A stretch of DNA of 64,000 nucleotides, from NCBI RefSeq assembly GCF_001278075.1, contig NZ_CP011340.1:6445501-6509500 (forward strand). Reading direction: 5' to 3'. Origin of the DNA: Streptomyces pristinaespiralis (GTDB lineage Bacteria > Actinomycetota > Actinomycetes > Streptomycetales > Streptomycetaceae). Below, piece after piece: positions 34,619 to 53,904 of this stretch. A program made the position numbers and the translations under genes. The notes under the pieces were generated by a model. It had not been told where the DNA came from. It was given only the letters and a program-made list of their open reading frames with translations, and made no database searches. Every line of letters begins with the position of its first letter. Positions within the stretch are counted from its first letter, which is position 1.

Positions 34619-35149
34619 TCAGAACAGGGGCTGCGGCAGCACACCCTCGAGCGCCAGCAGTTGCCGTTTGGTCTCGAGCCCTCCGCCGAAGCCCCCGAGC
34701 CCGCCGTCCGTCTCGAGCACCCGGTGGCACGGCACGACGACCGGCAGGGGATTGGAACCCATCGCCGCGCCCACGGCCTGCGCCGCGCCCGGCTGGCCGA
34801 CGCGGGCGGCGAGCTCCCCGTATCCGACGACCGCCCCGTACGCCACGCCTGCCAGCAGCTCACGGAGCACCTGCCGGTTGAAGCCCGCCGAGAGCGACCA
34901 GTCCAGCGGCAGGTCGAACGTGCGCAAGGTGCCCGCGAAGTAGGCCTGGAGCTGGCGTATCGGCTCGGCGAGCCGGCCCGCCGGGTCCTCCACGGGCTCG
35001 GCCCCCAGCCGGTCCGCCAGCTGCGCCGGCATGCGGTCCCGTACGGCCGGCCCGGCGTGGAAGGCCACGCTCACGAGGCCCTCGTCCGTCGCGGCGAGAA
35101 GCAGCGGGCCGATGTCCGTGCCGATCACGGCCCACTCGAAGGTCTTCAT
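34619..35149 (-). CDS. Methylated-DNA-[protein]-cysteine S-methyltransferase
   Basis: A 176-residue suicide repair protein that removes alkyl groups from O6-alkylguanine. The active-site PCHRVL has the acceptor Cys at about residue 141. The DNA-binding part has FNRQVLRELLAGVAYG and GYGELAARVGQPGAAQAVGAAMGSNP. ATG 35149 (MKTFEWAVIGTD) is chosen because a RecA-NDp-type promoter ends 7 bases before it, giving a leaderless message. The longer GTG at 35173 lies inside that promoter. The family symbol would be ogt. Confidence 0.92.
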   Translation of the reverse strand: MKTFEWAVIGTDIGPLLLAATDEGLVSVAFHAGPAVRDRMPAQLADRLGAEPVEDPAGRLAEPIRQLQAYFAGTLRTFDLPLDWSLSAGFNRQVLRELLAGVAYGAVVGYGELAARVGQPGAAQAVGAAMGSNPLPVVVPCHRVLETDGGLGGFGGGLETKRQLLALEGVLPQPLF

Positions 35150-35156
35150 GCCGACC

Positions 35157-35179
35157 ACCGTACGGCGGGCCACTGACAG
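35157..35179 (-). promoter_or_regulatory. RecA-NDp/PafBC-type damage promoter of the methyltransferase
   Basis: Read on the minus strand: CTGTCAGTG (35179-35171), 8 bases, TACGGT (35162-35157), then 7 bases to the ATG at 35149. All conserved positions of tTGTCRGTG-N8-TANNNT match except the weak first base. Confidence 0.8.
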
Positions 35180-35218
35180 CCGGGCCTGTCCGGCCGGCCG
35201 TACGGTGACGGGCCGCGG

Positions 35219-36100
35219 TCAGCCGACGGCGTCCCGCACGATGTCGGGGTTGTTGGTGATGATCCCGTCCACGCCGAAACCGGCCACGCGCGTGGCGGCC
35301 GCCGCGTCGTTCACGGTCCAGGTGCTGACCCGCAGCCGCTTGCCGTGGGCGCCCTTGAGGGCGTGCACCGCGGCGACGTACTCGGCGCTGAGGGACGTGT
35401 GCGTGGGGTTGATCTGGTCGGTGAACGCCGCGTAAGAGGGCAGGTCGGCGACCGCGGGGGTGCCGAGGAAACCGGTCGTGATGTCGGGGCGCTGCTGGTG
35501 CACCGCCTTGACGCTGTCCGCGCCGAAGCTCTGGATGACGAGCCTGCTGCGCACGTGGCTCCGGTCGAGCCAGCCCTCCTCGCCGAGGACGCGCAGGGTG
35601 TCCTTCTCGATGCCGGGGTAGAGCTCCGGCTTCTTGATCTCCAGGAGCAGCTTCTGGTTGTTCTCGTCCACGCGCTCGAGGTACTGCTTCAGCGTCGGCA
35701 CCCGGGCCCCCGCCCATTCGGCACCGCGCCAGCTGCCCGCGTCCAGGGTGGCGATCTCCGCGGCGGTGAACTCCTTCACCTTCCACGGCGCGCGGTCGGG
35801 GAAGCGCTGCTCCACGTCGGTGGTCCTCGCGAGCGAGTCGTCGTGCACGACGACGAGCTCACCGTCCTTGGTGCGCTGGACGTCGTTCTCCACCCAGGCG
35901 AAGCCCATCTCGTCGGCGAGGTCGACCGCTGCGAGGGTGTTCTCCGGTGCGTAGGCGGACGCGCCGCGGTGGGCGATCACCTGCGGAGCGTCCTCGCGGC
36001 CGGCGGTGGACTGCTCGGTTCCGGCCGCGGATGCGGGCAGGACCAGCGCGGTGAGTCCCAGAGTCGTGGCGGCCAGTACAGCGACGGGGCGTGCGTACAC
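35219..36100 (-). CDS. Secreted glycerophosphodiester phosphodiesterase family protein
   Basis: A 293-residue exported enzyme that should cleave glycerophosphodiesters to glycerol 3-phosphate and an alcohol. The signal peptide runs to about residue 26 (LVLPASAAG). The active-site blocks are VIAHRGASAYAPENT (catalytic His), ENDVQRTKDGELVVVHDDSL (metal ligands and second His) and LLLEIKKP (Glu ligand). GTG 36100 has GAGGAAG upstream. Frames that continue upstream have no such site. It is divergent from the MHYT gene. Confidence 0.88.
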   Translation of the reverse strand: MYARPVAVLAATTLGLTALVLPASAAGTEQSTAGREDAPQVIAHRGASAYAPENTLAAVDLADEMGFAWVENDVQRTKDGELVVVHDDSLARTTDVEQRFPDRAPWKVKEFTAAEIATLDAGSWRGAEWAGARVPTLKQYLERVDENNQKLLLEIKKPELYPGIEKDTLRVLGEEGWLDRSHVRSRLVIQSFGADSVKAVHQQRPDITTGFLGTPAVADLPSYAAFTDQINPTHTSLSAEYVAAVHALKGAHGKRLRVSTWTVNDAAAATRVAGFGVDGIITNNPDIVRDAVG

Positions 36101-36402
36101 GGGGTCTTCCTCACGTCGTCGGATCACGGACGGGCCGAGAATGGCAGTTCCCGGCCAACGAGGCACAGGCGAAGTATGGCCACAAGGTGAACGGGTCCGC
36201 CCCCGGGCAGTCTTGGGCGACTCCCGGCGGAGCCGGGGGAGCGGACGCTGCGCCCAAGGGTCGACAAATCTCTGTGCAGACGTCCGCCCGCACTTCCATG
36301 AGCAGTTCCGAGCGCCGTACGCTCGCCCAGAACCAGACGTTCCATCCAAGATCGCGGGGATCGTAGGGCGCCGGGGATCGCACGGGACGAAGGGTGCAGG
36401 GG
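36101..36402. other. Divergent intergenic region, phosphodiesterase / MHYT gene
   Basis: About 300 bases without a gene I can support. It contains a small hairpin (CCCGGC, GGA, GCCGGG at 36223-36237) in GC-rich surroundings and TACGCT near 36322 that could be a -10 for the MHYT gene. No convincing promoter or operator is visible. Confidence 0.5.
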
Positions 36403-37269
36403 ATGCAGGGCACGGTGGACGGTTTCGGCTACGGCCTCGTCACCCCGGTGGCGGCCTACCTGATGGCATGCCTCGGAGGAGCACTGGGACTGCGCTGCAC
36501 GACGCGGTCCGTCCGGGGTGAGGGCTCGTTCCGGCCGGGCTGGCTGGCGCTCGGCGCGACGGCGATCGGCTCGGGCGTGTGGAGCATGCATTTCATCGCG
36601 ATGATGGGTTTCACCGTCGAAGAGGTCCCCATCGGCTACGACAGGGCGACCACGTTCGCCAGCCTGGCCGTCGGCATCGTGATGGCGGGCATCGGGATCT
36701 TCATCGTCGGCCACCGCGGCGCGACCAGGATGTCCCTCGTCACCGGTGGGACGATCACCGGACTCGGGGTGGCGTCCATGCACTACCTCGGCATGGACGG
36801 GATGCGGCTGCCGGGACGCATCGAGTACGACACCCTCACGGTCGCCCTGTCCGTCGTGGTCGCCGTCGTCGCGGCCACCGCGGCGCTCTGGGCCGCCGTG
36901 TCGGTCCACGGCTTCATGGTCAGCCTGGGGGCCAGCATGCTCATGGGCCTCGCGGTGAGCGGAATGCACTACACCGGAATGGCCGCGGTGAGCGTCCATG
37001 TCCACGAAGCGGTGGACGCCGCGGTCGCCGGCGATCCGCCCTCCGAACTCCTCGCCCCGGTGCTCGTCGGACCCGCCGTGTTCCTGCTGATCGCCGGTAT
37101 CGCGGTCCTTTTCGACCCCCTGCTGGTGACCGGCGGGCCGGACCCGCGCGGGCACGGCGACGTCAGGGCCCTGCGCCCCGACCTTCCCGCGCCGGGGGTC
37201 CGGCGGCCCGCCGCCCGGGCCGCCGGAAGGGGTGCGGGACGGGACGCCCGGGGAGCGGACCGCCGCTGA
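36403..37269 (+). CDS. MHYT-domain integral membrane sensor
   Basis: A 288-residue membrane protein. The three MHYT repeats SMHFIAMMGF, SMHYLGMDGM and SGMHYTGMAA, each on its own helix, could bind copper and sense oxygen, CO or NO. This is a prediction made for the family from sequence. Seven helices are visible, then a basic Pro/Arg-rich cytoplasmic tail. No GGDEF, EAL or kinase domain is attached, so it is a bare sensor. ATG 36403 has GAAGGG at good spacing. GTG 36394 is the alternative. It ends 60 bases before uvrB. Confidence 0.85.
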   Translation: MQGTVDGFGYGLVTPVAAYLMACLGGALGLRCTTRSVRGEGSFRPGWLALGATAIGSGVWSMHFIAMMGFTVEEVPIGYDRATTFASLAVGIVMAGIGIFIVGHRGATRMSLVTGGTITGLGVASMHYLGMDGMRLPGRIEYDTLTVALSVVVAVVAATAALWAAVSVHGFMVSLGASMLMGLAVSGMHYTGMAAVSVHVHEAVDAAVAGDPPSELLAPVLVGPAVFLLIAGIAVLFDPLLVTGGPDPRGHGDVRALRPDLPAPGVRRPAARAAGRGAGRDARGADRR

Positions 37270-37300
37270 GGCGGGCGGTCCGCCGCCGTTAGGACCCCGA

Positions 37301-37323
37301 CTGTCAGTGGGTGGTCGTACGGT
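37301..37323 (+). promoter_or_regulatory. RecA-NDp/PafBC-type damage promoter of uvrB
   Basis: CTGTCAGTG (37301-37309), 8 bases, TACGGT (37318-37323), then 6 bases to ATG 37330. There is no ribosome binding site, so the mRNA should be leaderless. Confidence 0.85.
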
Positions 37324-37329
37324 TGTTGC

Positions 37330-39444
37330 ATGCGGCCCGTTTCCAAGATCGAACGTACGGTGGCGCCTTTCGAGGTCGTCAGCCACTTCCAGCCCAGCGG
37401 TGACCAGCCGACGGCCATCGCCGAGCTGGAGCGACGCATCCGTGCCGGTGAGAAGGACGTCGTCCTGCTCGGAGCGACGGGCACGGGCAAGTCGGCGACC
37501 ACGGCCTGGATGATCGAGAAGCTCCAGCGCCCCACCCTGGTCATGGCGCCCAACAAGACCCTGGCCGCCCAGCTGGCGAACGAGTTCCGCGAGCTCCTGC
37601 CGAACAACGCGGTGGAGTACTTCGTCTCGTACTACGACTACTACCAGCCCGAGGCGTACGTCCCGCAGTCGGACACCTACATCGAGAAGGACTCCTCGAT
37701 CAACGAGGAGGTCGAGCGGCTGCGGCACTCCGCGACCAATTCCCTCCTCACCCGGCGCGACGTCGTCGTGGTCGCCTCCGTCTCCTGCATCTACGGCCTC
37801 GGCACCCCGCAGGAGTACGTGGACCGGATGGTGCAGCTCAAGGTCGGCGACGAGATCGACCGCGACCAGCTGCTGCGCCGCTTCGTCGACATCCAGTACA
37901 CCCGCAACGACCTGGCCTTCCAGCGCGGCACCTTCCGTGTGCGCGGCGACACCATCGAGATCTTCCCGGTCTACGAGGAGCTCGCCGTCCGCATCGAGAT
38001 GTTCGGCGACGAGATCGAGGCGCTGTCCACGCTGCACCCCCTCACCGGCGAGATCCTCAGTGAGGACCAGTCGCTGTACGTGTTCCCCGCCAGCCACTAC
38101 GTGGCGGGCCCCGAGCGGATGGAGAAGGCGGTCAACGGCATCGAGGCCGAGCTGGAGCAGCGCCTCGCCGAGCTCGACAAGCAGGGCAAGCTGCTGGAGT
38201 CCCAGCGGCTGCGCATGCGGACCACGTACGACATCGAGATGATGCGCCAGATCGGCTCCTGCTCCGGCATCGAGAACTACTCGATGCACTTCGACGACCG
38301 CGAGCCCGGGTCCCCGCCGAACACCCTCCTCGACTACTTCCCCGAGGACTTCCTGCTCGTCATCGACGAGTCGCACGTCACGGTTCCGCAGATCGGCGCG
38401 ATGTACGAGGGCGACGCGTCCCGCAAGCGCACACTCGTCGACCACGGCTTCCGGCTGCCGTCCGCCCTCGACAACCGCCCGCTGAAGTGGGAGGAGTTCA
38501 AGGAGCGCATCGGCCAGACCGTCTATCTCTCGGCGACACCGGGCACCTACGAACTGTCCCGCGGCGACGGCTTCGTGGAGCAGATCATCCGCCCCACCGG
38601 GCTCATCGACCCACAGGTCGTCGTCAAGCCGACCGAGGGCCAGATCGACGACCTGGTGCACGAGATCCGCGAGCGCACGGAGAAGGACGAGCGGGTCCTG
38701 GTGACCACGCTCACCAAGAAGATGGCCGAGGACCTCACCGACTACTTCCTCGAGCTCGGCATCCAGGTCCGCTATCTGCACAGCGACGTGGACACGCTGC
38801 GCCGTGTCGAGCTGCTGCGGGAGCTGCGCTCCGGCGAGTACGACGTCCTGGTCGGCATCAACCTGCTCCGTGAGGGTCTCGACCTGCCGGAGGTGTCGCT
38901 GGTCGCGATCCTCGACGCCGACAAGGAGGGCTTCCTGCGCTCCGGCACCTCCCTGATCCAGACCATCGGCCGCGCGGCGCGCAACGTCTCCGGCCAGGTC
39001 CATATGTACGCGGACAAGATCACGCCGGCGATGGAGAAGGCCATCGAGGAGACCAACCGCCGCCGCGAGAAGCAGATCGCGTACAACACGGAGAACGGCA
39101 TCGACCCCCAGCCGCTCCGCAAGAAGATCAACGACATCGTCGCGACCATCGCGCGCGAGGAGATCGACACCGAGGAACTGCTGGGCACCGGCTACCGCCA
39201 GGCGAAGGCGGAGAAGCCCGGCAAGGGTGCCAAGGCGCCCGTCCCCTCGCTCGGCGCCGGCCGCAAGGGCGAGATCCTCAGCGACCGCCCCGCGGCCGAA
39301 CTCGCCGGGATCATCGAGGAGATGACGGACCGGATGCGCGCGGCCGCCGCGGAGCTCCAGTTCGAGGTGGCCGCCCGACTGCGCGACGAGGTGGGCGAGT
39401 TGAAGAAGGAGCTCCGCCAGATGAAGGAGGCAGGGCTCGCCTGA
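37330..39444 (+). CDS. uvrB: Excinuclease ABC subunit B
   Basis: A 704-residue helicase-like damage-verifying subunit of nucleotide excision repair. Walker A is GATGTGKS (about residues 47-54). The DNA-clamping beta-hairpin has [20 protein letters not shown], and motif II is VIDESHVT. The second helicase domain has [24 protein letters not shown] and TIGRAARN. The C-terminal UVR motif that binds UvrC is visible ([19 protein letters not shown]). Length and domains are complete. It lies directly under a damage-type promoter and is predicted leaderless. Confidence 0.98.
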
Positions 39445-39471
39445 GCCCGCTGGGCGGGATGTGACGGGTGC

Positions 39472-39486
39472 ACACACCTGGTGTGT
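39472..39486. promoter_or_regulatory. Inverted repeat upstream of terD (possible operator)
   Basis: ACACACC-T-GGTGTGT is a perfect 7-bp dyad, 28 bases after the uvrB stop and 113 bases before terD. It is placed as an operator for the terD operon. Confidence 0.5.
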
Positions 39487-39598
39487 TGCAAGACCGACAC
39501 AAAAACGGGGGACCGCGTCGCGCTGTCGGTGCGACTGCGTAGGGTGCTTCAACAACCGCACACATGGGCGGTGGCAAATCGCGAGAAGGGGACAGCGC

Positions 39599-40177
39599 GT
39601 GACGGTCAACATGACCAAGGGCCAGGCCATCAGCCTGCAGAAGAGTGACGGGGGCACCCTCACGGCGGTGCGGATGGGCCTCGGCTGGCAGGCAGCGCCC
39701 CGCCGCGGTCTGTTCGGCTCGCGCACCCGGGAGGTCGACCTGGACGCCTCCGCGGTGCTGTTCGCCGACAAGCAGCCGGTGGACGTGGTCTTCTTCCGCC
39801 ACCTCGTCAGCGACGACGGCTCCGTCAAGCACACCGGTGACAACCTGGTCGGCGGCGCCGGTTCCGGCGGCGACGACGAGGCGATCCTCGTCGACCTCCA
39901 GCGGGTCCCGGTCCACATCGACCAGATCGTCTTCACGGTGAACTCGTTCACCGGCCAGACGTTCCAGGAGGTGCAGAACGCCTTCTGCCGCATCGTCGAC
40001 GAGACCAACGGCCAGGAGCTCGCCCGGTACACCCTCGACGGCGGTGGCCAGTACACCGCGCAGATCATGGCGAAGGTGCACCGCGCCGGCGCCGGCTGGC
40101 AGATGACGGCCCTCGGCAACCCGGCCAACGGCCGTACGTTCCAGGACCTGATGCCCGCGATCCTGCCGCACCTGTAG
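39599..40177 (+). CDS. TerD family protein
   Basis: A 192-residue cytoplasmic protein of the tellurium-resistance/stress TerD family, whose fold binds calcium. It opens with MTKGQAISLQKSDGG after a short lead and has GLGWQAAP, EVDLDASAVLFA, HTGDNLVGGAGSGGDDEAI and QMTALGNPANGRTFQDLMP, the normal TerD sequence. GTG 39599 is chosen because GAGAAGGGG lies upstream. The ATG at 39611 is an alternative. The TerD-fusion gene follows 102 bases later on the same strand. Confidence 0.92.
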   Translation: MTVNMTKGQAISLQKSDGGTLTAVRMGLGWQAAPRRGLFGSRTREVDLDASAVLFADKQPVDVVFFRHLVSDDGSVKHTGDNLVGGAGSGGDDEAILVDLQRVPVHIDQIVFTVNSFTGQTFQEVQNAFCRIVDETNGQELARYTLDGGGQYTAQIMAKVHRAGAGWQMTALGNPANGRTFQDLMPAILPHL

Positions 40178-40279
40178 GAACCGGCGGCATTCAGAGTCGG
40201 ACCGCAGCTCCCGGAGGCACAGCCGCCGGGAGCTGCCCGCGTACCAACCGCAACAGCAGCGCACCGAGGGGACAGAGCG

Positions 40280-42226
40280 ATGACGGCCGAGCTGGTCCGG
40301 GGGCAGAACCACCCCTTGCCCGACAGCCGACTTGAGATCCGCGTGTCGGCCGGCCATCCGGTCGTCGCCTGCGCCACCTGCTCCGACGAGCGGGGGGCCG
40401 CGCGTGAGGACTGGGTGGCCCACCCCGGCGCCACCGGCCTGCCCGGCGTCGAGGTGCCGGAGCGCGCCGAGCGGTCCCCCCGTTTCGCTGTCGACCTGGA
40501 CGCGGTGCCCGCGGAGGTGCACCAGGTCAACCTGCTGCTCGCCCTCCCCGTGGGCGCCGGCGGCCCCGACCGCTTCGGCGTCACCGCCGCGCCCTTCGTC
40601 GCGGTCATGGCCAAGGACGGCTCCGAGCTGGCCAGTTTCACCATCACCGGTCTGGACACCGAGACCGCGCTCGTCGCCGTCGAGCTGTACCGCCGCCAGG
40701 GTGCGTGGAAGGTCCGCGCCGTGGGCCAGGGGTACGCGGGCGGGCTCGCCCAGCTGCTGGCCGACCAGGGCATGGCCCAGGCCGACCGGACGGCGGCGGC
40801 CATCCAGGAGACCGCCGTGCCACGCGCGCACCGTGCGGAGCCGGCCCGGCTGCACACGGCCGCCGACGCCGCCGGAGCGGCGTCCGGCCCGGACCAGCCG
40901 TCCCCCGCGGACGCCACGCTCAGCGGCGGCCTCGCCGCCCCCCAGCCCGCCGGCGCCGATCCCGCTCCGCAGACGCCCACGCCCGACGCCCCGCAGATGC
41001 CCGGCGGTCCCATCAACTACGCCCATCCGCGCAGGCAGTCGGCGCCGCCCCCGCCGGCCCCCACGGCACAGCCCGCGGAGCCCGGGCGCCCGCCCACGCC
41101 GGTGGCGGGCGACGCGAGCGGCTGGTCCATGGAGGAGCGGCTCTACAACCAGGTCTGGGGGATGTTCGAGGACCTCGCCCGGGCCGTCGCCGCGTACCGC
41201 AGCGCCGTCGAGTTCGCCGAGTCCCGGATGGACAAGGAGCTCGACAGCGTCCTGTCCGACCCGCGCAGCCGCATCGGCAGCACCGGCGACGCCGCGAGGG
41301 CCGCGGCACGGGCCAAGTGCGAGCAGCTGACCGACCAGGCCCGCCAGGTCCTCGACCGCGACCTCGCCCAGCTGGCGGCGGAGTCCGAGGTCGTCGAGCC
41401 GGCGCTGCCGCCCGCGTTCGCCCGCTGGGACAACCCGTGCTGGCACGCCTACCGCGTCCCCATGGAGATCCCGATGGCGCTGCGCCTCGGCGACCTCCAT
41501 CTGCCGGAGAGCCCCGAGCTGCGGATCCCCTGCCTGGTGCGCCTGCCGCTGGAGCGCGGCCTGTGGGTGGACAGCGGCCGCTCGAGCTCGGACGCCGCGA
41601 TGGCGGTGGACGAGGCGCGGCTGCGCCGGCTCGCCGTCGACTCGGCGGTCGCGCTCGCCGCCCGGCTGCTCGCCGTGTACCCGCCCGGCGAGTTCACCGT
41701 CCACGCCATCGACCCGGCCGGCTCCGCCGCCGCCTCCCTGGCGCCGCTGGTGGAATCCGGGGCCCTCGCCGGTCCGCCGGCCGCCGGCGCCCAGGGCGTG
41801 AGCGCCGTCCTTGCCAAGCTCACCGAGCGGGTCGACCTGGTGACGATGGCCGTGCGCGGCGGGGCGGCCGACTCGCTGCCCCCCGATCTCGACACCGGCG
41901 AGCAACTGCTGATCGTCAACGACTTCCCGCACGGCTTCGACGACCGCGCGGTCAACCAACTGCGCTATCTCGCCGACGAGGGCCCGGCCGTCGGGGTCCA
42001 CCTGATGATGGTCGCGGACCGGGAGGACGCCACGGCCTACGGCCCGGTCCTCGATCCGCTGTGGCGTTCGCTGCTGCGTGTCACACCGGTCCCCGACGAC
42101 CACCTGGCCGACCCGTGGGTGCGGCACGCGTGGACGTACGAGCCGCTGACGGTGCCCGAGGGCAGTGACGTGCTGCGCCAGGTCCTGACCCGCGTGACGG
42201 AGGCCCGCAGATCCTGGAACCGCTGA
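40280..42226 (+). CDS. TerD-domain protein fused to a degenerate FtsK-like C-terminal region
   Basis: A 648-residue cytoplasmic protein. Residues 1-165 are TerD-like (FAVDLDAVPAEVHQVNLLLA, then FTITGLDTETALVAVELYRR). A Pro/Ala-rich linker covers about 190-285. A helical segment about 290-365 (WSMEERLYNQVWGMFEDL) follows. The last 280 residues look like an FtsK/HerA-type NTPase core (RIPCLVRLPLERGLWVDS, then LLIVNDFPHGFDDRAVNQ), but the Walker A place reads DSGRSSSDA and has no GKS/GKT. It is therefore probably inactive as an ATPase. GAGGGGACAGAGCG precedes ATG 40280. Confidence 0.75.
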   Translation: MTAELVRGQNHPLPDSRLEIRVSAGHPVVACATCSDERGAAREDWVAHPGATGLPGVEVPERAERSPRFAVDLDAVPAEVHQVNLLLALPVGAGGPDRFGVTAAPFVAVMAKDGSELASFTITGLDTETALVAVELYRRQGAWKVRAVGQGYAGGLAQLLADQGMAQADRTAAAIQETAVPRAHRAEPARLHTAADAAGAASGPDQPSPADATLSGGLAAPQPAGADPAPQTPTPDAPQMPGGPINYAHPRRQSAPPPPAPTAQPAEPGRPPTPVAGDASGWSMEERLYNQVWGMFEDLARAVAAYRSAVEFAESRMDKELDSVLSDPRSRIGSTGDAARAAARAKCEQLTDQARQVLDRDLAQLAAESEVVEPALPPAFARWDNPCWHAYRVPMEIPMALRLGDLHLPESPELRIPCLVRLPLERGLWVDSGRSSSDAAMAVDEARLRRLAVDSAVALAARLLAVYPPGEFTVHAIDPAGSAAASLAPLVESGALAGPPAAGAQGVSAVLAKLTERVDLVTMAVRGGAADSLPPDLDTGEQLLIVNDFPHGFDDRAVNQLRYLADEGPAVGVHLMMVADREDATAYGPVLDPLWRSLLRVTPVPDDHLADPWVRHAWTYEPLTVPEGSDVLRQVLTRVTEARRSWNR

Positions 42227-42348
42227 CGCTGCCGCAGGCCGGGCCGGGCCGAGCCGGGCCGGGCCGGGCCGCCCAGCGTGGGGCAGCCCGGCGTGCGTCT
42301 CCGTCCCTGCGGCGCAAGGTGCGCGTCTCCGACCGCGCCGCGGCAGGC

Positions 42349-42640
42349 GAGCGTGTGGCGGCCGCCCGGCCTCGTGTCGCCGAGCGTGGCGGCAGGCCCG
42401 CCTGTGCCGCTGACGGTGCCGTAGGCCGGCCCGGCCTTGTGCCGCCGAGCGTGTGGCGGCTGCTCGGCCCGTGTCGCCGAGCGTGGCGGCAGGCCCACCT
42501 GTGCCGCTGACGGTGCCGCGGGGCCGGCCTCGCGCCGCCGAGCGTGTGGCGGCTGCTCGGCCTCGTGTCGCCGAGCGTGGCGGCAGGCCCGCCTGCGCCG
42601 CTGACGGTGCCGTAGGCCGGCCGGCCCCGCGCCGCCGAGC
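42349..42640. repeat. About 95-bp imperfect tandem repeat, three units
   Basis: GAGCGTGTGGCGGC-type unit starts lie at 42349, 42447 and 42540, and a fourth, truncated start is at 42637 (steps of 98, 93 and 97 bases). Each unit also contains GAGCGTGGCGGCAGGCC and GCCGCTGACGGTGCCG. Confidence 0.85.
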
Positions 42641-42648
42641 GTCTAGGC

Positions 42649-42713
42649 GCGCCTTGCCGCGAGGCAGGCGAGCGGATTCTCCCCGCGCCTTGCCGCGAGG
42701 CAGGCGAGCGGAT
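42649..42713. repeat. 36-bp tandem repeat, two units
   Basis: The 29-base block that begins GCGCCTTGCCGCGAGGCAGG and ends GCGGAT occurs at 42649-42677 and again at 42685-42713 without change. Confidence 0.9.
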
Positions 42714-43294
42714 CCCGCCATGCAGAGGCCCGGCCTCGGCGTTGCCCCTGCCGTGGGCCCAAGCCCGCGCTCCCCGGCGCGCGGCGTCCCGGCCCGCTTC
42801 TCCGACCGTGCGGCAGGCGAGCCCACTCCCGGCCGCAGCGGCCCGGTCCACACCGCTGGCGCTGCCGCCGGCCGGCCCGCGCCGCCCGGCGGGCGCAGCG
42901 GCCGGGACTGCGCCTTCAGTCCCGCGGCAGGCGAGCGCACCTCTGGGCGCAACGCCCGGTCCACGCCGATGACGCTGCCGTAGGCACCTGACCCTGCGCA
43001 GCTGAGCTGTGGCGGCCCGGCCTGCCCCCGGCTGTCTGGCAGCAGCCGCACGGCGTCGACAGTGCGGCAGGCCGACCCGGCACCCCCGCCGCGCGGCGGC
43101 CCGGTCCACGCCGCTCACGTTGCCGCCGGCCGAGCCCGCGCCGCCCGGCGGGTGCGGCGACCGGGCCTGCGCTCCCCGGCAGTGCGGCAGGCGAGCGTAC
43201 CCCCTGCCGCGGGCAGGCCCCGCCCGACCTGGTCACTTGACCTCTGCTTTACCTCGGCCTTTACCTTTACTTGGTCTTTCATGTACCTTCTTTA

Positions 43295-43440
43295 CGCGGA
43301 GGGGAGTACTCCCGACTCGCGGCGTGCCCGTCAATACGGACCGACAGACAGGTCCCGGGGCGTCGGCCCGTGGCGCACGCCCGGGTGGAGGAGACCTCCG
43401 GCAGCGACGACGCTGATCAGTAGCCGTACGACGCCGGAGG
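43295..43440 (+). ncRNA. yybP-ykoY-type manganese riboswitch leader of terC
   Basis: GGGGAGTA (43301-43308), the hallmark loop of the yybP-ykoY family, is followed by CTCCC. Later pairings are GGCGTGC (43321-43327) with GCACGCC (43375-43381), CCGAC with GTCGG (43341-43345/43362-43366) and GGAGG with CCTCC (43387-43391/43395-43399). CCTCCGGC (43395-43402) is exactly complementary to the ribosome binding region GCCGGAGG (43433-43440) of terC. This suggests control of translation. The family is known to sense Mn2+ and to lie before TerC-type genes. Confidence 0.75.
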
Positions 43441-43444
43441 CGCA

Positions 43445-44431
43445 GTGGACGTTTCAATGAACCTCTGGGTGCTGACCATTCTCGGTCTGAGCGCCCTCAT
43501 CGCGGTCGACTTCTTCATCGGGCGGAAGCCCCACGACGTGTCGATCAAGGAAGCCGGCATCTGGACCGTGGTCTGGATCGCGCTGGCCGCGCTCTTCGGT
43601 CTCGGCCTGCTGTTCGCCGGTGAGAGCCAGGCGTCAGGCGAGTTCTTCGCCGGCTTCATCACCGAGAAGTCGCTGAGCGTCGACAACCTCTTCGTCTTCG
43701 TCCTGATCATGGCGAAGTTCGCGGTGCCGTCCCACCTCCAGCAGCGGGTGCTGCTGATCGGTGTGCTCATCGCCCTGGTGCTGCGCGCCATATTCATCGC
43801 CGCCGGTGCGGCGATCATCGCCAGCTTCTCCTGGGTCTTCTACATCTTCGGCGCGTTCCTGATCTACACCGCCTGGAAGCTCATCCAGGAGGCGCGGTCG
43901 GACGAGGAGGAGGAGTTCGAGGAGAACAAGCTCCTCAAGTCGATCGAGCACCGCTTCGGCGTCGCCGACAAGTACCACGGCACCAAGCTCTTCATCCGTA
44001 ACAACGGGAAGCGCATCCTGACGCCGCTGATGGTCGTCATGCTCGCCATCGGCACCACCGATGTGCTCTTCGCGCTGGACTCGATCCCCGCGATCTTCGG
44101 TCTGACCCAGGACCCGTACATCGTCTTCACGGCGAACGCCTTCGCCCTGATGGGTCTGCGGCAGCTGTACTTCCTCATCGGCGGACTGCTCAAGAAGCTG
44201 GTCCACCTCAGCTACGGCCTGTCGGTGATCCTCGGATTCATCGGTGTGAAGCTGGTGTTGCACGCCCTGCACGAGAGCGGTGTGCACGTCCCGGAGATCT
44301 CCATCCCGGTCTCGCTGGCGGTGATCTGTGGCGTGCTGATCATCACCACGGTCACCAGCCTGATCGCCTCCAAGAAGCAGGCGGAGCGTGAGGCGGCCGA
44401 GGGCACGCAGAAGGACAGCATCGAGGCCTGA
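43445..44431 (+). CDS. TerC family integral membrane protein
   Basis: A 328-residue membrane protein with about nine helices. The helices carry the conserved acidic sites of TerC proteins (ALIAVDFFIGRKPHD, SVDNLFVFVLIM, TTDVLFALDSIPAIFG), which are thought to handle metal ions. A cytoplasmic acidic loop (RSDEEEEFEENK) lies in the middle. TerC proteins are implicated in manganese export or in loading exoenzymes with metal. GTG 43445 (VDVSMN) follows GGAGG at 4 bases. The gene lies directly behind a manganese-riboswitch-like leader and a strong terminator follows it. Confidence 0.92.
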   Translation: MDVSMNLWVLTILGLSALIAVDFFIGRKPHDVSIKEAGIWTVVWIALAALFGLGLLFAGESQASGEFFAGFITEKSLSVDNLFVFVLIMAKFAVPSHLQQRVLLIGVLIALVLRAIFIAAGAAIIASFSWVFYIFGAFLIYTAWKLIQEARSDEEEEFEENKLLKSIEHRFGVADKYHGTKLFIRNNGKRILTPLMVVMLAIGTTDVLFALDSIPAIFGLTQDPYIVFTANAFALMGLRQLYFLIGGLLKKLVHLSYGLSVILGFIGVKLVLHALHESGVHVPEISIPVSLAVICGVLIITTVTSLIASKKQAEREAAEGTQKDSIEA

Positions 44432-44474
44432 GCCTGACGGTCTGCGCATACCGCGCAGCCCGCGGAACACGCAC

Positions 44475-44511
44475 CGGCGGGTGCGGACGGCAGCACCGTC
44501 CGCACCCGCCG
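44475..44511 (+). terminator. Strong hairpin terminator after terC
   Basis: A 16-bp perfect stem (CGGCGGGTGCGGACGG with its complement) has a CAGCA loop and is followed by T-rich TCGTTCGTT. It begins 44 bases after the terC stop. Confidence 0.9.
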
Positions 44512-44578
44512 TCGTTCGTTGCCCGGCACCTCGTACTGTGACCGTGCCCCACGACAACACCCGGCCGAGACCGAGGAC

Positions 44579-45238
44579 GTGATCGTCATCGCCGTACGTA
44601 CAGGCGTGAAGGAGCCCCTGCCCGCGCTGCGGCTGTACCGGTCCGTCGGGCAGCCGCGAGCAGCCGTCCTGCTGCTGCACGGCGGCCGCGCCGACGCTCT
44701 GGAGCCACCGCCCGCCCTCAACCTCCCGCTCGCGCGGATGAGGCCGTTCGTACGGGCCATAGGCCGCGCCACGGCCGGCCGGCCCGTGGCGCTGGGCCGG
44801 GTCCGCTACGGCCACCGCGGCTGGAACGGCGAGCGCGCCGACGCCGCCCGTGACGCCCGACTGGCGATGGACGAACTGGCCACACTGGCCGGTGCCGTGC
44901 CGACGGTCCTGGTGGGCCACTCCATGGGCGCACGGGCCGCCCTGCACGCGGCGGGCCACCCGCAGGTGAAAGCGGTCGTGGGCCTCGCCCCCTGGTGCCC
45001 GCCGGAGGACCCGGTCGACCACCTCGCCGGCAGGACCGTGGTGCTGCTGCACGGGGACCGCGACCGGATCACCGACCCGGCGCAGACGTGGGCCTTCGCC
45101 GCACGGGCCCGAGCAGCGGGCGCCGACGTCCGCGAACTGCCGATGCCCGGGGGTGACCATGCGATGCTCCGCGGCGCGGCCGACTGGCACGCGCACACCA
45201 CACGCCTGGTGCTCGAACTGCTCGGCACCGCAAGCTGA
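44579..45238 (+). CDS. Alpha/beta hydrolase
   Basis: A 219-residue hydrolase. The nucleophile elbow is VGHSMGA (G-x-S-x-G). The acidic residue is in LLHGDRDRITDP and the catalytic His in MPGGDHAML. The oxyanion-side VLLLHGGRADA is near the start. The order is that of the dienelactone hydrolase/lysophospholipase-like group. The substrate is unknown. GTG 44579 (VIVIAVRTG) is the best start, but the ribosome binding site is weak, so a later start is possible. Confidence 0.75.
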   Translation: MIVIAVRTGVKEPLPALRLYRSVGQPRAAVLLLHGGRADALEPPPALNLPLARMRPFVRAIGRATAGRPVALGRVRYGHRGWNGERADAARDARLAMDELATLAGAVPTVLVGHSMGARAALHAAGHPQVKAVVGLAPWCPPEDPVDHLAGRTVVLLHGDRDRITDPAQTWAFAARARAAGADVRELPMPGGDHAMLRGAADWHAHTTRLVLELLGTAS

Positions 45239-45299
45239 CCGGCCTCGCACGGACGGGCCGCCGCCTGCCGTCGCTGCCGACGTCGGACCGGCGACTGCC

Positions 45300-45419
45300 C
45301 GGCTGCTCCGGCCCCTGCCGTCACGCCGACGGCTGCCCCCCGGCCTGCCGCCGTACCAGCGGCTGCTCCGCCGCCTGCCGTCCTACCGGCGGCTGCTCCC
45401 GCCGCCTGGCGTCAGGTCG
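45300..45419. repeat. 30-bp tandem repeat, four units
   Basis: CGGCTGCTCC-type unit starts lie at 45300, 45330, 45360 and 45390, each exactly 30 bases with about half to two thirds of the positions shared. It fills most of the gap between the hydrolase and the convergent MBL-fold gene. Confidence 0.8.
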
Positions 45420-45483
45420 GTGGGAGCCCGGCAGCTCCCACCGCCTCCCGTCGGGCCGGACAGACAGGCAGGGGACGGCCGTC

Positions 45484-46140
45484 CTACCAGCCGCGTGCCC
45501 GCCACTCGGCCAGATGCGGCCGCTCCTCGCCCAGGCTGGTGTCCTTGCCGTGCCCCGGGTAGACCCAGGTCTCGTCGGGGAGGCGGGCGAACAGCTTCTC
45601 CTCGACGCCGTCGAGCAGGCTCGTGAACGCCTTCGGGTCGTCGCGGGTGTTGCCCACGCCGCCCGGGAACAGGCAGTCACCGGTGAAGACGTGCGGGTGG
45701 CCGTGCGGGTCGTCGTAGACGAGCACGATGGAACCCGGAGTGTGACCGACGAGGTGACGGGCGGTCAGCTCCACCCGCCCCACCCGGATCGTGTCGCCGT
45801 CGTCGACGGGCACGTCGGTGGGGACGGGGATGCCGTCCGCGTCATGACGCCCGGCGTAGGTACGCGCGCCGGTCGCCCGCACCACCTCCTCCAGCGCCTG
45901 CCAGTGGTCGCCGTGCCGGTGCGTGGTCACGACGGAGGCGATGGAGTCGTCGCCGATCAGCTGCAGCAGTGTCTCCGGGTCGGCCGCGGCGTCGATCAGC
46001 AACTGCTCGCCAGTGGCCCTGCAGCGCAACAGATAGGCGTTGTTGTCCATCGGTCCGACCGCGACCTTGGAGATCATCAGGTCGGCGAGTTCGTGCACGT
46101 CCGCCGGGCCGCCGACCTTCACCGCTCCGCTGTATGTCAT
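45484..46140 (-). CDS. MBL-fold metallo-hydrolase
   Basis: A 218-residue enzyme. The metal site is THRHGDHW (H-x-H-x-D-H), with further ligands in LVGHTPGS, FTGDCLFPGG and YPGHGKDT. The pattern is that of glyoxalase II-like/hydroxyacylglutathione hydrolases, and in actinobacteria it may act on mycothiol conjugates. It begins at ATG 46140, only 10 bases after the mycothiol-type isomerase gene, with no Shine-Dalgarno sequence. Translational coupling is likely. Confidence 0.87.
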   Translation of the reverse strand: MTYSGAVKVGGPADVHELADLMISKVAVGPMDNNAYLLRCRATGEQLLIDAAADPETLLQLIGDDSIASVVTTHRHGDHWQALEEVVRATGARTYAGRHDADGIPVPTDVPVDDGDTIRVGRVELTARHLVGHTPGSIVLVYDDPHGHPHVFTGDCLFPGGVGNTRDDPKAFTSLLDGVEEKLFARLPDETWVYPGHGKDTSLGEERPHLAEWRARGW

Positions 46141-46150
46141 GCGTCTCAGC

Positions 46151-46834
46151 CTATAGCGGGGGCAGTGCGGGGAGCGGGCCTGTGGCGCACTCCAGGGCCG
46201 AGCCGTCGCGGCGGCCGGACAGCCAGCCCAGGACGTCGGCGGGGGAGCCGGAGACGGTGACTGGTGCGCCCTCGGAACCGCCCGTACGCCACTCGCCGCC
46301 GGCGGTGACGATCCGGGTCGGCGGGACGTCGGAGCGGCCGCTCCAGCGCTCTGCCAGGAACTCGGTCTCCCGCTCGGTGAACTCCTTCGGCAGGTCCTCC
46401 AGCTCGTAGCCGGCTCCCAGGTCGACATGGTGCAGTTCGACCTCGACGAGGCGGCGGAACGGCACCCGGGCGGCGCGGTCGGTCACGCCGTTGCGCAGTT
46501 CCACGGTGCGCTCCCAGTCGCCGGAGGCGCGGCCCGCCTCCTGGAAGCGCTCGGCGGAGGCCCGCAGGTCGTCGAGCTGCTCGGGGAGCGGGCGGGGCGC
46601 GTCACGCTCGATGTCGGCGTCGCGCGCCTCACCTGTGACATACATCGGCCGGCCTTCGAGAACATTTACGAGCGCGTCGGCGTTACGGGAGATGTGGGCC
46701 AGTACATGACCTCGGGTCCAGCCCGGCAGCCGTGACGGTCCGGCCACGGCCGCGTTGTCCAGTCCGGCGGCTGCGGTGAGGAGCCGGTCCGTCGCTTCAC
46801 GTACAGAGCGCAGGTCGCTCACAGGATCGATCAT
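46151..46834 (-). CDS. Maleylpyruvate isomerase family mycothiol-dependent enzyme
   Basis: A 227-residue protein. The DinB-like four-helix part has LPGWTRGHVLAHISRNADAL and the metal-ligand RRLVEVELHHVDLG. The C-terminal MDMPI domain has PPTRIVTAGGEW and the end GSPADVLGWLSGR. Members use mycothiol for isomerisation or thiol transfer. The upstream MBL-fold partner (a possible thioesterase for mycothiol adducts) supports a detoxification pair. ATG 46834 is chosen. The track GTG at 46858 lacks a ribosome binding site. Confidence 0.88.
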   Translation of the reverse strand: MIDPVSDLRSVREATDRLLTAAAGLDNAAVAGPSRLPGWTRGHVLAHISRNADALVNVLEGRPMYVTGEARDADIERDAPRPLPEQLDDLRASAERFQEAGRASGDWERTVELRNGVTDRAARVPFRRLVEVELHHVDLGAGYELEDLPKEFTERETEFLAERWSGRSDVPPTRIVTAGGEWRTGGSEGAPVTVSGSPADVLGWLSGRRDGSALECATGPLPALPPL

Positions 46835-46893
46835 GAGGTCGACCCTAGCCCCGCCCACTCGATCGGGTGAAGGTCTCGGCGGACGTCCTGAAA

Positions 46894-46909
46894 TCGAATG
46901 CGCGTGCTA
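46894..46909 (+). promoter_or_regulatory. Degenerate LexA-box candidate upstream of uvrA
   Basis: TCGAAT-GCGC-GTGCTA matches the actinobacterial SOS box TCGAAC-N4-GTTCGA at 9 of 12 positions. It lies 122 bases before the uvrA start. A -10-like TAGGCT is at 46965-46970. Confidence 0.35.
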
Positions 46910-47030
46910 TACGCTCGGTGGAGGCATCCTTGAAAGTCAGGCATTCATCTTCTGGCGGCCCCCATAGGCTGGGAATCAGCCTCGGACGGGGGCTGTGCCT
47001 CCGCTTCTACTCAGAAAGGTGCGGACCGGC

Positions 47031-50015
<2,985 letters not shown>

Positions 50016-50061
50016 CGTGAGTGGGGGTGCGGTTCCGCTGTGCGGGGCCGCCCCCCGACCC

Positions 50062-50091
50062 TCCCCCCACGGCCCGGTGGCCGTGGGGGGA
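50062..50091 (+). terminator. Hairpin terminator after uvrA
   Basis: A 13-bp perfect stem (TCCCCCCACGGCC with GGCCGTGGGGGGA) with a CGGT loop lies 46 bases after the uvrA stop. The rest of the gap to the Rieske gene (50092-50309) shows no gene. Confidence 0.88.
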
Positions 50092-50309
50092 CAGTCGTAC
50101 CCGGCCCCTGTTCACGGGGGCTCCGCCCGCGTCGACCCTCTCCTCGACTCGACCGGGATCGCCCGGCGGCAGTGGTCGCAGCGCTCACGTCCACCCGCCC
50201 GACGCGGCGGCGATCTCCGCCGGTATCGTCGGGTCTGTCAGGGGCGGCAAGGCCCCCGGCCGACCCGCGATCTCGATCACGCCCCACTCGACCCACCCAT
50301 GGAGTCCCC

Positions 50310-50732
50310 ATGTCCCCGACCGCCCGCCGTGCCGTCCTGAAGGGCGCCGCCTTCGCCGGGGCCGCCGGGCTGGGGATCGTCGGATGTTCCACCGAATCCA
50401 AGCTGGGACACGCGGAGGTGCCCACTCCCACCGCACCCGTGGACCTGGGCCCGGCGGAAGCCGTACCGGTTGGCGGGGCCAAGCTGTACCGGGAGCAGCG
50501 TCTGATCGTGCACTGCCCCGCCAAGGGCGAGTACAAGGCCTTCAGCGCCCAGTGCACCCACGCCGGCTGCGTCCTCGACAAGGTGGAGGGCACCGAGGGC
50601 AACTGCCCCTGCCACGGCAGCCGCTTCGACGTGACGAGCGGCAAGGCACTGAAGGGTCCGGCCACCGTTCCGCTGCCCGAGGTCCCGGTCAGGGCCGAGG
50701 GCGGCAAGCTCGTCGCGGGCCCCGGCGCCTGA
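50310..50732 (+). CDS. Rieske [2Fe-2S] protein, Tat-exported and probably lipid-anchored
   Basis: A 140-residue redox protein. The N-terminus has twin Arg (TARRAVLKGAAF) and ends at IVGCSTES, a lipobox-like sequence whose Cys would be lipidated. The Rieske domain has both cluster motifs, CTHAGC and CPCHGSRF, so the [2Fe-2S] ligands are complete. ATG 50310 follows GGAG by 5 bases. It is a stand-alone Rieske protein of the arsenite oxidase/soluble type, with no partner subunit beside it. The downstream XRE gene is convergent. Confidence 0.88.
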   Translation: MSPTARRAVLKGAAFAGAAGLGIVGCSTESKLGHAEVPTPTAPVDLGPAEAVPVGGAKLYREQRLIVHCPAKGEYKAFSAQCTHAGCVLDKVEGTEGNCPCHGSRFDVTSGKALKGPATVPLPEVPVRAEGGKLVAGPGA

Positions 50733-50765
50733 CCGGCGCCACCACGCGCCTGCGGGAGACGCGGC

Positions 50766-51698
50766 TCAGTCCCAGTCCCAGGCGATGCCCAGGATCCCCG
50801 GGCGGACCCCCTGCTCCACGAGGTGCACCGTGCGGTGCCGCGCGCCGGGTGTGAGCGGCGTGCTGGCGCCCCGCGGTGCCCCTGTCGTGGCCCGGGAGAA
50901 GCGGTGGCACCGTTTGGGCAGGGCGCCCTGCTCGAAGCGCACCTGGAGCATGTACTGCCCGCCCGCGGAGCTGAAGCCGCGTACGTACTCGGTGCTCGGG
51001 CCGCCGGTCCCGTCCTCGAAACCGTAGCCGAAGACGTACGTCTCGCCCTCCCGCAGCGGGGCGTCGAAGATCAGCTCGGCGACCACGATGCCGCTCGTCC
51101 GGTCCCACCGCACCTGCCCCGGCCGGCAGTTCTCCAGGGCGCTCACCTCCACGGCCGCCGGGTCGCAGCCCCTCCCGCCGCGGTGGACGGCGAGGCAGCG
51201 GTCGACGCCGTCGCGGTGGGCCCGTACGACCTGCTGCGATTCCCGTCCCAGCAGCTGCCGCCCCGCACCGATCCGCACCCGCTCCTGGTGCCCGACGGTG
51301 TGCAGGCCGTGGCTCTGGGTGGAGCGGAGACCGGTGAGGAGCCGTTCCGCCGCGTCCAGGGATGCCTCGAGCGTGTGGTGCGGGCGGGCGGCGGGCGGCT
51401 CCGTCCCGGGGCGCCCGCCGGCCTCGCCGCTGCCGAGCAGCCGCACCAGGGAGTGGGCCGGGAGGCCGAGGACCTCCTCCAGCGCTCGCACGGCCCGCAG
51501 CGACTCGGGGCGCTGCGGGCGCCGGGCGCCCTGCTGCCAGTAACTGAGGCTCGTCACGCCGACCTTGATCCCGCGGTGGGCGAGGTGGTGCTGGACGCGC
51601 TGGAGCGGCAGGCCCCGTACGGCGAGGGCGGCGCGGAGCGCGAGATGGAAGGGGCCGGTGTGCAGCACCTGTGCCAGCTCGGCCTCGGTGTGGCCCAT
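50766..51698 (-). CDS. XRE-type helix-turn-helix protein with a large C-terminal domain
   Basis: A 310-residue protein. The N-terminal helix-turn-helix is of the XRE type ([35 protein letters not shown], in about residues 45-80). The remaining 200 residues are unusual: a helical region, then beta-rich sequence with [30 protein letters not shown] and ending IAWDWD. I do not recognise that domain. Related genes lie in the same place in other Streptomyces, from memory. It is divergent from uvrC with 220 bases between. Confidence 0.7.
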
Positions 51699-51888
51699 GG
51701 ATTCCTCCGGGGAAAGTGGAACGCCGGACGGAAGTGTTCACATCCGGATCGGGCCGTTCACAGCGGCGCGTAACCCCGCATTGAAGCGTGTTGACCTGCC
51801 CGCGACAAGGGCCGTCGCCCTTCGTTGTCCGCGGTCCGTGGTGGCGGCGGAAGAGGGAGCGATCACACCCCCGACGGGAGTGGCCGGG

Positions 51889-51911
51889 CTGTCACTGTCC
51901 GCCAGTAGGGT
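51889..51911 (+). promoter_or_regulatory. RecA-NDp/PafBC-type damage promoter of uvrC
   Basis: CTGTCACTG (51889-51897), 8 bases, TAGGGT (51906-51911), then 7 bases to ATG 51919. One core position differs from the consensus (C for G). No ribosome binding site lies before the start, so the mRNA should be leaderless. Confidence 0.75.
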
Positions 51912-51918
51912 GGACGGC

Positions 51919-53904
51919 ATGGCCGACCCCTCCAGCTACCGCCCCAAGCCGGGACAGATCCCCGACTCGCCGGGGGTCTACCGGTTCCGTGACGAGCACC
52001 GCCGGGTGATCTACGTCGGCAAGGCCAAGAGCCTGCGCCAGCGCCTCGCCAGCTATTTCCAGGACCTGGCGAACCTGCACCCGCGCACCCGCACCATGGT
52101 CACCACCGCGGCCTCCGTCGAGTGGACGGTCGTCTCCACCGAGGTGGAGGCGCTGCAGCTGGAATACTCCTGGATCAAGGAGTACGACCCCCGGTTCAAC
52201 GTCAAGTACCGCGACGACAAGAGCTATCCGTATCTGGCGGTCACCCTCAACGAGGAGTTCCCGAGGGTGCAGGTCATGCGCGGTGCCAAGCGCAAGGGCG
52301 TGCGGTACTTCGGTCCTTACGGGCACGCCTGGGCCATCCGCGAGACCGTCGACCTGATGCTGCGCGTCTTCCCCGTGCGCACCTGCTCCGCGGGCGTCTT
52401 CCGCAACCACGTGCAGAAGGGCCGCCCCTGTCTGCTCGGTTACATCGGCAAGTGCTCCGCGCCCTGTGTGGGCCGTGTCACCCCCGAGGAGCACCGCGAA
52501 CTGGCCGAGGAGTTCTGCGACTTCATGGCCGGCCGCACCGGCACCTACATCCGCCGCCTCGAGAAGCAGATGATGGCGGCCGCCGAGGAGATGGAGTACG
52601 AGAAGGCCGCCCGGCTGCGCGACGACATAGGGGCCCTCAAGCGCGCCCTCGAGAAGAACGCGGTGGTGCTGGCCGACGCGACCGACGCCGACCTCATCGC
52701 GCTCGCGGAGGACGAGCTGGAGGCCGCCGTGCAGATCTTCCACGTCCGCGGCGGCCGCGTCCGCGGACAGCGCGGCTGGGTCACCGACAAGGTCGAGAAC
52801 GTGGACACGGCCGGCCTGGTCGAGCACGCGCTCCAGCAGCTGTACGGCGAGGAGAGCGGCGACGCGGTCCCCAAGGAGGTCCTGGTCCCCGCCCTGCCGG
52901 AGGACACGGGCGCCGTCACCGAGTGGCTGACCGGCCGGCGCGGCGCGGCCGTCTCCCTGCGCGTTCCGCAGCGCGGCGACAAGAAGGCCCTGATGGAGAC
53001 GGTCGAGCGCAACGCGCTCCAGGCCCTCGGGCTGCACAAGACCAAGCGCGCCAGCGATCTCACCACCCGCTCCCGTGCCCTGGAGGAGATCGCAGAGGCG
53101 CTCGGCCTGGACTCGGCCCCGCTGCGCATCGAGTGCTTCGACATCTCGCACCTCCAGGGCGAGGACGTGGTGGCGTCCATGGTCGTCTTCGAGGACGGCC
53201 TCGCCCGCAAGAGCGAGTACCGCCGCTTCCAGATCAAGGGCTTCGAGGGGCAGGACGACGTCCGCTCCATGCACGAGGTGATCACCCGGCGTTTCAAGCG
53301 GTACCTCGCGGAGAAGGACCGCACCGGCGAGTGGATCGGCGGTGACGACCCGGTGCACGAGGCGCTGGAGGACGACGGCCGGCCCAAGAAGTTCGCCTAC
53401 CCGCCGCAGCTGGTCGTCGTCGACGGCGGGCAGCCCCAGGTCGCCGCCGCCAAGCGCGCGCTGGACGAGCTCGGGATCGACGACGTCGCGGTCTGCGGTC
53501 TCGCCAAGCGGCTCGAGGAGGTCTGGCTGCCGCACGAGGACGATCCCGTGGTCCTGCCGCGTTCGAGCGAGGGCCTGTATCTCCTCCAGCGGGTGCGTGA
53601 CACGGCTCACGACTTCGCCATCCGCTATCAGCGCTCCAAGCGGTCCAAGCGCATCAGGACCAGCCCCCTGGACGCGGTCCCCGGTCTCGGGGAGACCAGG
53701 AAGCAGGCTCTGATCAAGCATTTCGGTTCGGTCAAGCGCCTGCGGCAGGCGACAATCGAGCAGATCTGCGAGGTTCCCGGCATGGGCCGTAAGACCGCGG
53801 AGTCGGTCGTCGTGGCCCTGGCGCAGACGGCGCCGCCCGCGCCCGCCGTGAACACCGCGACAGGAGAGATCATTGAAGAGAGCGACGGGGGCAGCACGAC
53901 ATGA
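51919..53904 (+). CDS. uvrC: Excinuclease ABC subunit C
   Basis: A 661-residue dual-incision nuclease. The GIY-YIG domain ([21 protein letters not shown], residues 16-36) opens the protein. A Cys cluster is in [32 protein letters not shown] motif follows at about 215-250. The RNase H-like domain has [20 protein letters not shown] and [17 protein letters not shown]. The two C-terminal helix-hairpin-helix motifs ([20 protein letters not shown] and [17 protein letters not shown]) are complete. It overlaps rapZ by 4 bases (ATGA). ATG 51919 fits the length and the promoter position. Confidence 0.98.

Follow-up and report, generated by a model that had tools for sequence, protein, structure and literature searches.

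Probable RecA-NDp/PafBC-type promoters before ogt, uvrB, uvrC and a terD-like gene of Streptomyces pristinaespiralis, and a genus-wide set of similar sites near start codons

We describe here a set of promoter-like boxes in a 64-kb stretch of the Streptomyces pristinaespiralis chromosome (NZ_CP011340.1, positions 6,445,501 to 6,509,500; hereafter the window), standing before the methyltransferase gene ogt, the repair genes uvrB and uvrC, and a gene with a TerD domain (terD below). These boxes are very probably RecA-NDp/PafBC promoters that act on all four genes. The promoter type itself is already known; in mycobacteria, this signature activates DNA repair independently of the classical SOS pathway. 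What is new is a set that spans a genome and the genus Streptomyces, in which the occurrence of this promoter type had been in doubt, and a tie to leaderless starts. Our reading draws together the excess of the motif in the genome and in the genus, a sharp peak at one spacing, repair genes as targets, a pile-up of start codons 6 or 7 bases behind the box, the presence of genes for PafB and PafC, and a published mechanism and consensus. An initial annotation of the window had already proposed this interpretation, and what it predicts at the sequence level was borne out for the genome excess, the spacing, the targets, the regulator genes and the start codons alike.

Within the window, the pattern TGTCRSTG-N8-TANNNT matches four times (Table 1); 100 shuffles gave 0.01 matches on average, in line with the earlier remark that such sharing was unlikely by chance. 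The initial annotation had listed the boxes of ogt, uvrB and uvrC, correctly as to position and strand, and had missed the fourth, before terD. It had also described both blocks and the exact 8-base spacing as shared. The gap of 8 bases followed by TANNNT does recur in all four boxes, and ogt, uvrB and terD have exact TGTCRGTG; at uvrC the block reads TGTCACTG, the sole departure from TGTCRGTG among the matches found genome-wide.

Over the whole genome (a single contig of 8.53 Mb), the pattern occurs at 46 sites and its reversed form at none. When every spacing from 2 to 20 was tried between TGTCRGTG and TANNNT, 45 sites fell at N8 and 9 at the 18 other spacings together, while a reversed control gave 7 over all spacings. 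All 24 genomes sampled from the genus, this one included, hold sites, 23 to 73 each against 0 to 3 for the reversed control. A chance origin of the boxes is ruled out by the window shuffles, the genome count and the N8 peak.

Seventeen of the 46 sites head a repair, recombination or replication gene, as judged from NCBIfam and Pfam names: recA, ruvC, radA, uvrB, uvrC, ogt, nth, ung, ligA, dnaE, and genes for a UvrA-family protein, a UvrD-like helicase, a PD-(D/E)XK nuclease, a DinG/YoaA-type helicase, a RarA-like ATPase, a DEDDh exonuclease and an AlkZ-like glycosylase. At one further site, rpsF stands at the head with ssb behind it. The downstream open reading frame (ORF) was scanned for 44 sites, at 1e-5 to 1e-10 with extra Pfam scans; many ORFs were cut at 1 kb, several matches fall below NCBIfam's own cut-offs, and the functional labels come from family names and were not assigned blind. 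Other targets include a macrodomain-like protein (L033, with a weak DarG match), an ECF sigma factor, PhoH, MiaB, a protein weakly matching a restriction endonuclease, and many without an assigned function. The motif does not appear equally often before unrelated genes, an outcome that the initial annotation had named as counting against it: none of 20 control genes of leaderless type belongs to repair or replication, only 10 of the 20 having any NCBIfam match at 1e-20, a threshold stricter than that used for the sites. These 20 were a random draw from 50 ORFs that are of leaderless type and 150 or more codons long. The control stretches (40 of 20 kb, about one every 210 kb, some shifted off known sites) are site-free by choice and are therefore usable as background only.

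An RTG follows the box at an offset of 6 bases in 10 of the 46 sites and of 7 bases in 13, against a background of 1.32 per offset (binomial p 6e-7 and 4e-10, respectively). Among these 23, two are doubtful, one (L031) for its low GC3 and the other (L055) for want of a long ORF; at recA, a GTG stands at +7, in the same frame as the customary ATG at +43. Over the 24 genus genomes, a start codon follows at +6 or +7 in 574 of 1183 sites. For comparison, 21.0% of primary transcription starts are leaderless in S. coelicolor (PMC4895711), and our 23 of 46 differs from that share with p 1e-5. Across the genus, about half of the matching sites lie so near a start codon that the mRNA probably has no leader. 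Such geometry would tie damage regulation to the mode of translation initiation, a link of which we found no statement in the portions of the literature that our searches reached.

In the window, the start-codon geometry fits leaderless mRNAs for ogt, uvrB and uvrC. It does not fit terD, which we take not to be leaderless because of its greater distance from the box and the AAGGGG 5′ of its GTG. The absence of a Shine-Dalgarno site noted earlier stands with a reservation at uvrC, whose TAGGGT contains an AGGG that would also pass for a weak Shine-Dalgarno-like sequence. The leaderless layout had been said to settle the start codon of the methyltransferase; ATG 35149 fits it, although "settles" is too strong. 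There is a precedent for judging a start codon in this way, in that the annotated start of Rv1955 in M. tuberculosis was corrected with the help of a RecA-NDp (PMC2897130); Rv1955, however, starts well downstream of its transcription start and is not leaderless.

The uvrC box is weak. The gene is present in all 31 genus genomes, and its loci were compared in 30, where TAGGGT and an ATG 7 bases on are found without exception. One alternative is that the conserved AGTAGGGTG, invariant in all 30, is a ribosome-binding region and that the promoter lies further upstream, and the drift in the second half of the −26 block would suit this. We nevertheless consider it unlikely, since GTC (30 of 30) and TGTC (29 of 30) are kept at a fixed distance while the sequence upstream of them is divergent.

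If only the half-block kept at uvrC is retained, a larger set emerges. TGTC-N12-TANNNT-N6/7-RTG occurs 47 times in this genome, compared with 4 for the reversed control and an expectation of about 2.9 derived from leaderless-type sites in 0.8 Mb of site-free sequence; summed over the 24 genus genomes, there are 1184 against 84 reversed. Of the 47, 23 have RSTG and 24 lack it, and as two of the latter are duplicates at the other chromosome end, 22 remain, all of which were scanned. Eight of the 22 head xthA, xseA, xseB, dnaX, recD2, dgt, dnaG or an AlkZ-like gene, versus 0 of the 20 control leaderless-type genes (Fisher p 0.004); at an equal threshold of 1e-20, 7 of 13 named genes belong to repair or replication versus 0 of 10 controls (p 0.007). 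The relaxed form is partly known already. The PafBC regulon of M. tuberculosis uses TGTCGG, TGTCAG and TGTCAC followed by N10-TANNNT (PMC8151990), the last of which fits uvrC, and it likewise takes in replication and repair genes; the set described here is defined from sequence and shows TGTCGT, TGTCCG and others as well. We give roughly even weight to the broader proposition that these sites make up a full Streptomyces PafBC regulon, of some 65 to 70 promoters here, with TGTC-N12-TANNNT as its true core, with about half of its mRNAs leaderless, and with a reach into replication (dnaE, dnaX, dnaG, ligA, ssb behind rpsF, dgt, xseA, xseB, xthA and recD2). Were this so, the synthesis of repair proteins during damage may do without Shine-Dalgarno sites.

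Two minor features of the relaxed set may be recorded. A sub-form, TGTC-NN-ACCC, recurs at G000:C1:801279, 1621444, 3329762, 3881667, 4985273 and 5292170, and also precedes uvrB in Saccharothrix (L097) and Hamadaea (L102), where the spacing to the start codon is unchanged. Identical sites stand near both chromosome ends (G000:C1:79427 and 80683; 8451880 and 8453135), consistent with terminal inverted repeats.

As to what reads the boxes, the genome encodes PafB (L072:507-1463) and PafC side by side, behind an FKBP-type protein, in a 14-kb stretch that also encodes Pup, its ligase PafA and the beta and alpha subunits of the proteasome. In the PDB, the two proteins match best two chains of 7p5x (E 1.6e-55 and 1e-51), named "transcriptional regulator-like protein" and "PafC". 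PafB aligns over its full length with a 7p5x chain that we take to be M. smegmatis PafB, and its segment FNRMFERDKDDLRELG, a putative recognition-helix region, aligns with FSRMFERDKNELRDLG. The initiation complex of M. smegmatis has PafB on the −26 motif (PMC11804915). By analogy, TGTCRGTG would be the −26 element, read by the helix-turn-helix of PafB within a PafB-PafC heterodimer, and the housekeeping sigma factor would recognise TANNNT as the −10 element. Upon DNA damage, PafBC loaded with single-stranded DNA would bridge promoter and sigma factor and so switch on ogt, uvrB and terD, as well as uvrC from its weaker box. At ogt, uvrB and uvrC, transcription would probably begin at the A of the start codon, which would make these mRNAs leaderless. 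PafBC binding, induction by damage and transcription starts at the boxes are what we infer here from sequence.

The box may of course be real and yet be read in Streptomyces by another activator, such as ClgR or another regulator with a WYL domain. ClgR is reported to recognise the mycobacterial recA P1 promoter (quoted in PMC5656591), and further regulators of this kind do exist here, given that this genome yields 8 matches to PF19187, of which 4 exceed the cut-off. Such a substitution seems to us quite improbable in view of the joint presence of PafB and PafC in the pup-proteasome locus, the conserved putative recognition segment and the position of PafB in the mycobacterial complex. The locus itself has two relaxed-core sites, one (TGTCGGACCCCGCGAGTAGGGT; L080 83-104) just before pup at its head and another (L080 12254) before a helicase gene downstream of pafC.

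Conservation was followed at uvrB through a UvrB search of genome contigs, of which the best 80 loci were kept; S. venezuelae is not among the matches listed. Upstream DNA was checked at 79 of them, one (L099) being dropped as its match starts at base 1, and a few others having little upstream sequence. A strict box precedes uvrB in 18 of the 46 loci with actinobacterial titles and in none of the 33 others (one unassigned), and behind all 18, which come from other actinobacteria, there is an in-frame RTG at +6 or +7, the same layout as in the window.

Several observations weigh against the reading of the boxes as PafBC promoters. A 2022 paper (PMC9380542) reports that the M. smegmatis motif, judging by an initial search, seemed not to be conserved in S. 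venezuelae, and its main text mentions neither uvrB nor uvrC. Of the 44 scanned sites in our genome, 27 head no recognised repair gene, and two of the 46 (L048 and L055) have no convincing forward ORF. The RSTG half of the uvrC box is kept in only 13 of the 30 genus genomes compared. Among the best 80 uvrB loci, 28 of the 46 actinobacterial ones (a few with little upstream DNA) have no strict box, including those of Bifidobacterium, Corynebacterium and S. oceani. Lastly, 241 of the 246 class genomes sampled have a PafB match at 1e-15; four of the five genomes without one have 0 or 1 sites, and the fifth (G473, in 1310 contigs) has 12, a loss test of low power because PafB is nearly universal in the class.

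Of the 28 box-less uvrB loci, one (L096) is a near match, and TGTC stands in the corresponding position in several, among them those of S. oceani, Saccharothrix and Hamadaea. The S. oceani boxes of an ogt-like ORF (identified by eye), uvrB and terD read TGTCAGCG, TGTCGTAG and TGTCAGTC, with the distance to TANNNT unchanged. The terD box is exact in S. tendae as well (L116 12204) and degenerate in S. oceani (L082 12214).

A further alternative is that these genes are LexA/SOS targets and that the box is incidental. The LexA targets of S. venezuelae include recA and ruvC, with uvrA as a candidate, and TCGAACATCCATTC, which in our genome lies 77 bases upstream of the recA site, is the validated SOS box of recA there (PMC9380542). 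An SOS-box-like sequence, TCGAACGTACGGTG, is also found within the uvrB coding region. Taking GAAC-N4-GTTC with at most one mismatch as the SOS box form, a crude scan that some validated S. venezuelae boxes would escape found none within 150 bases of the four window sites and one or more within that distance of 7 of the 46 genome-wide. TCGAAC, in an equally crude scan with the same weakness, lies within 150 bases of 8 of the 46 sites against about 10 expected, so that there is no excess. As far as these crude scans go, SOS boxes were rejected as the shared signal, and LexA control of the set appears very improbable. At recA, the upstream TCGAACATCCATTC, as in S. venezuelae, suggests dual control by SOS and the PafBC-type box. 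Elsewhere (L061 1001-1034; G000:C1:6174726), a perfect GAACAGTAGTTC, which may be a LexA operator, comes immediately after a box; the ORF behind it has 88 residues and matches nothing in Pfam or NCBIfam, and double control by activator and repressor is possible there.

ECF41-type promoters have TGTCACA as their −35 element. That an ECF sigma factor reads TGTC in this role is hardly credible, and was rejected on spacing, as beyond this resemblance the distance from TGTC to the hexamer is fixed at 12 bases and the hexamer, TANNNT, has the housekeeping −10 form.

Returning to the PafBC-type reading, the M. tuberculosis RecA-NDp consensus is tTGTCRgtg-8 nt-TannnT (Gamulin 2004, as quoted in PMC5656591). 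The sites described here share with it both blocks, the N8 spacing and repair-gene targets; they differ in being a Streptomyces set taken genome-wide, in the deviant second half-block of uvrC, and in the leaderless geometry of about half of them. Within the genus, a RecA-NDp has been described for the S. coelicolor macrodomain gene SCO6735, in a section headed as UV-inducible (PMC5087735); promoter type and genus are the same, and a macrodomain-like gene is among our 46, but that study concerned a single gene. The S. venezuelae LexA/SOS regulon (PMC9380542) is likewise a damage regulon and has recA and ruvC in common with our set, but it is governed by a repressor with TCGAAC-type boxes. The discussion of that paper left open a RecA/LexA-independent damage response in Streptomyces. 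The genus counts make such a response directly testable, with a promoter list at hand.

The features of the window are collected in Table 1.

Table 1. Genes, promoter boxes and SOS-box-like sequences in the window
Feature	Position	Strand	Remarks
ogt, methylated-DNA--protein-cysteine methyltransferase	34619..35149	-	ATG 35149; NCBIfam TIGR00589 E 1.9e-26 (scanned from 35146); PDB relatives
ogt box, TGTCAGTG-N8-TACGGT	35157..35178 (35178-35157)	-	7 bases to ATG 35149
uvrB box, TGTCAGTG-N8-TACGGT	37302..37323	+	6 bases to ATG 37330
uvrB	37330..39444	+	NCBIfam NF003673, 1080.7 bits
SOS-box-like TCGAACGTACGGTG, weak candidate	37349..37362	+	inside uvrB coding region, 47 bases after box start
terD-like gene's box (fourth), TGTCGGTG-N8-TAGGGT	39524..39545	+	53 bases to GTG 39599
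TerD-domain gene	39599..40177	+	GTG start; Pfam PF02342 (TerD) E 3e-43
SOS-box-like TCGAATGCGCGTGC, weak candidate	46894..46907	+	137 bases before uvrA; compare S. venezuelae SOS boxes, PMC9380542 Table 1
uvrA, box-less in this genome	47031..50015	+	GTG 47031; NCBIfam NF001503 1578.4 bits (scanned from longer ORF start 46995)
uvrC box, degenerate, TGTCACTG-N8-TAGGGT	51890..51911	+	7 bases to ATG 51919
uvrC	51919..53904	+	NCBIfam NF001824, 1122.5 bits

For uvrA, TGTC-N12-TANNNT was not found in the 260 bases upstream of its GTG; uvrA of S. tendae carries TGTCAGTG-N8-TAGTCT, 77 bases upstream. Identity to the UvrB encoded here is 90% for the protein of Streptomyces sp. NBC_01214 and 88% for that of S. 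tendae.

In a phylum sample of 296 genomes, judged by eye (class counts were summed for the 24 genus genomes only), same-genus and most same-class genomes stand out, most others lie near background, and some families outside the class are in excess. Three extreme genomes hold 198, 118 and 83 sites, and the site lies in one dispersed repeat at the listed places of two of them (G405 and G484) and at 8 of 10 loci of the third (G423), for which reason raw counts outside the genus are not to be read as regulon size. In the repeat (L191-L220), GGG(C) and a partly palindromic stretch of high GC content come after TGTCGGTGCCCGCCCGTAGGGT; the repeat is present in dozens of copies, few of which have a start codon at +6 or +7.

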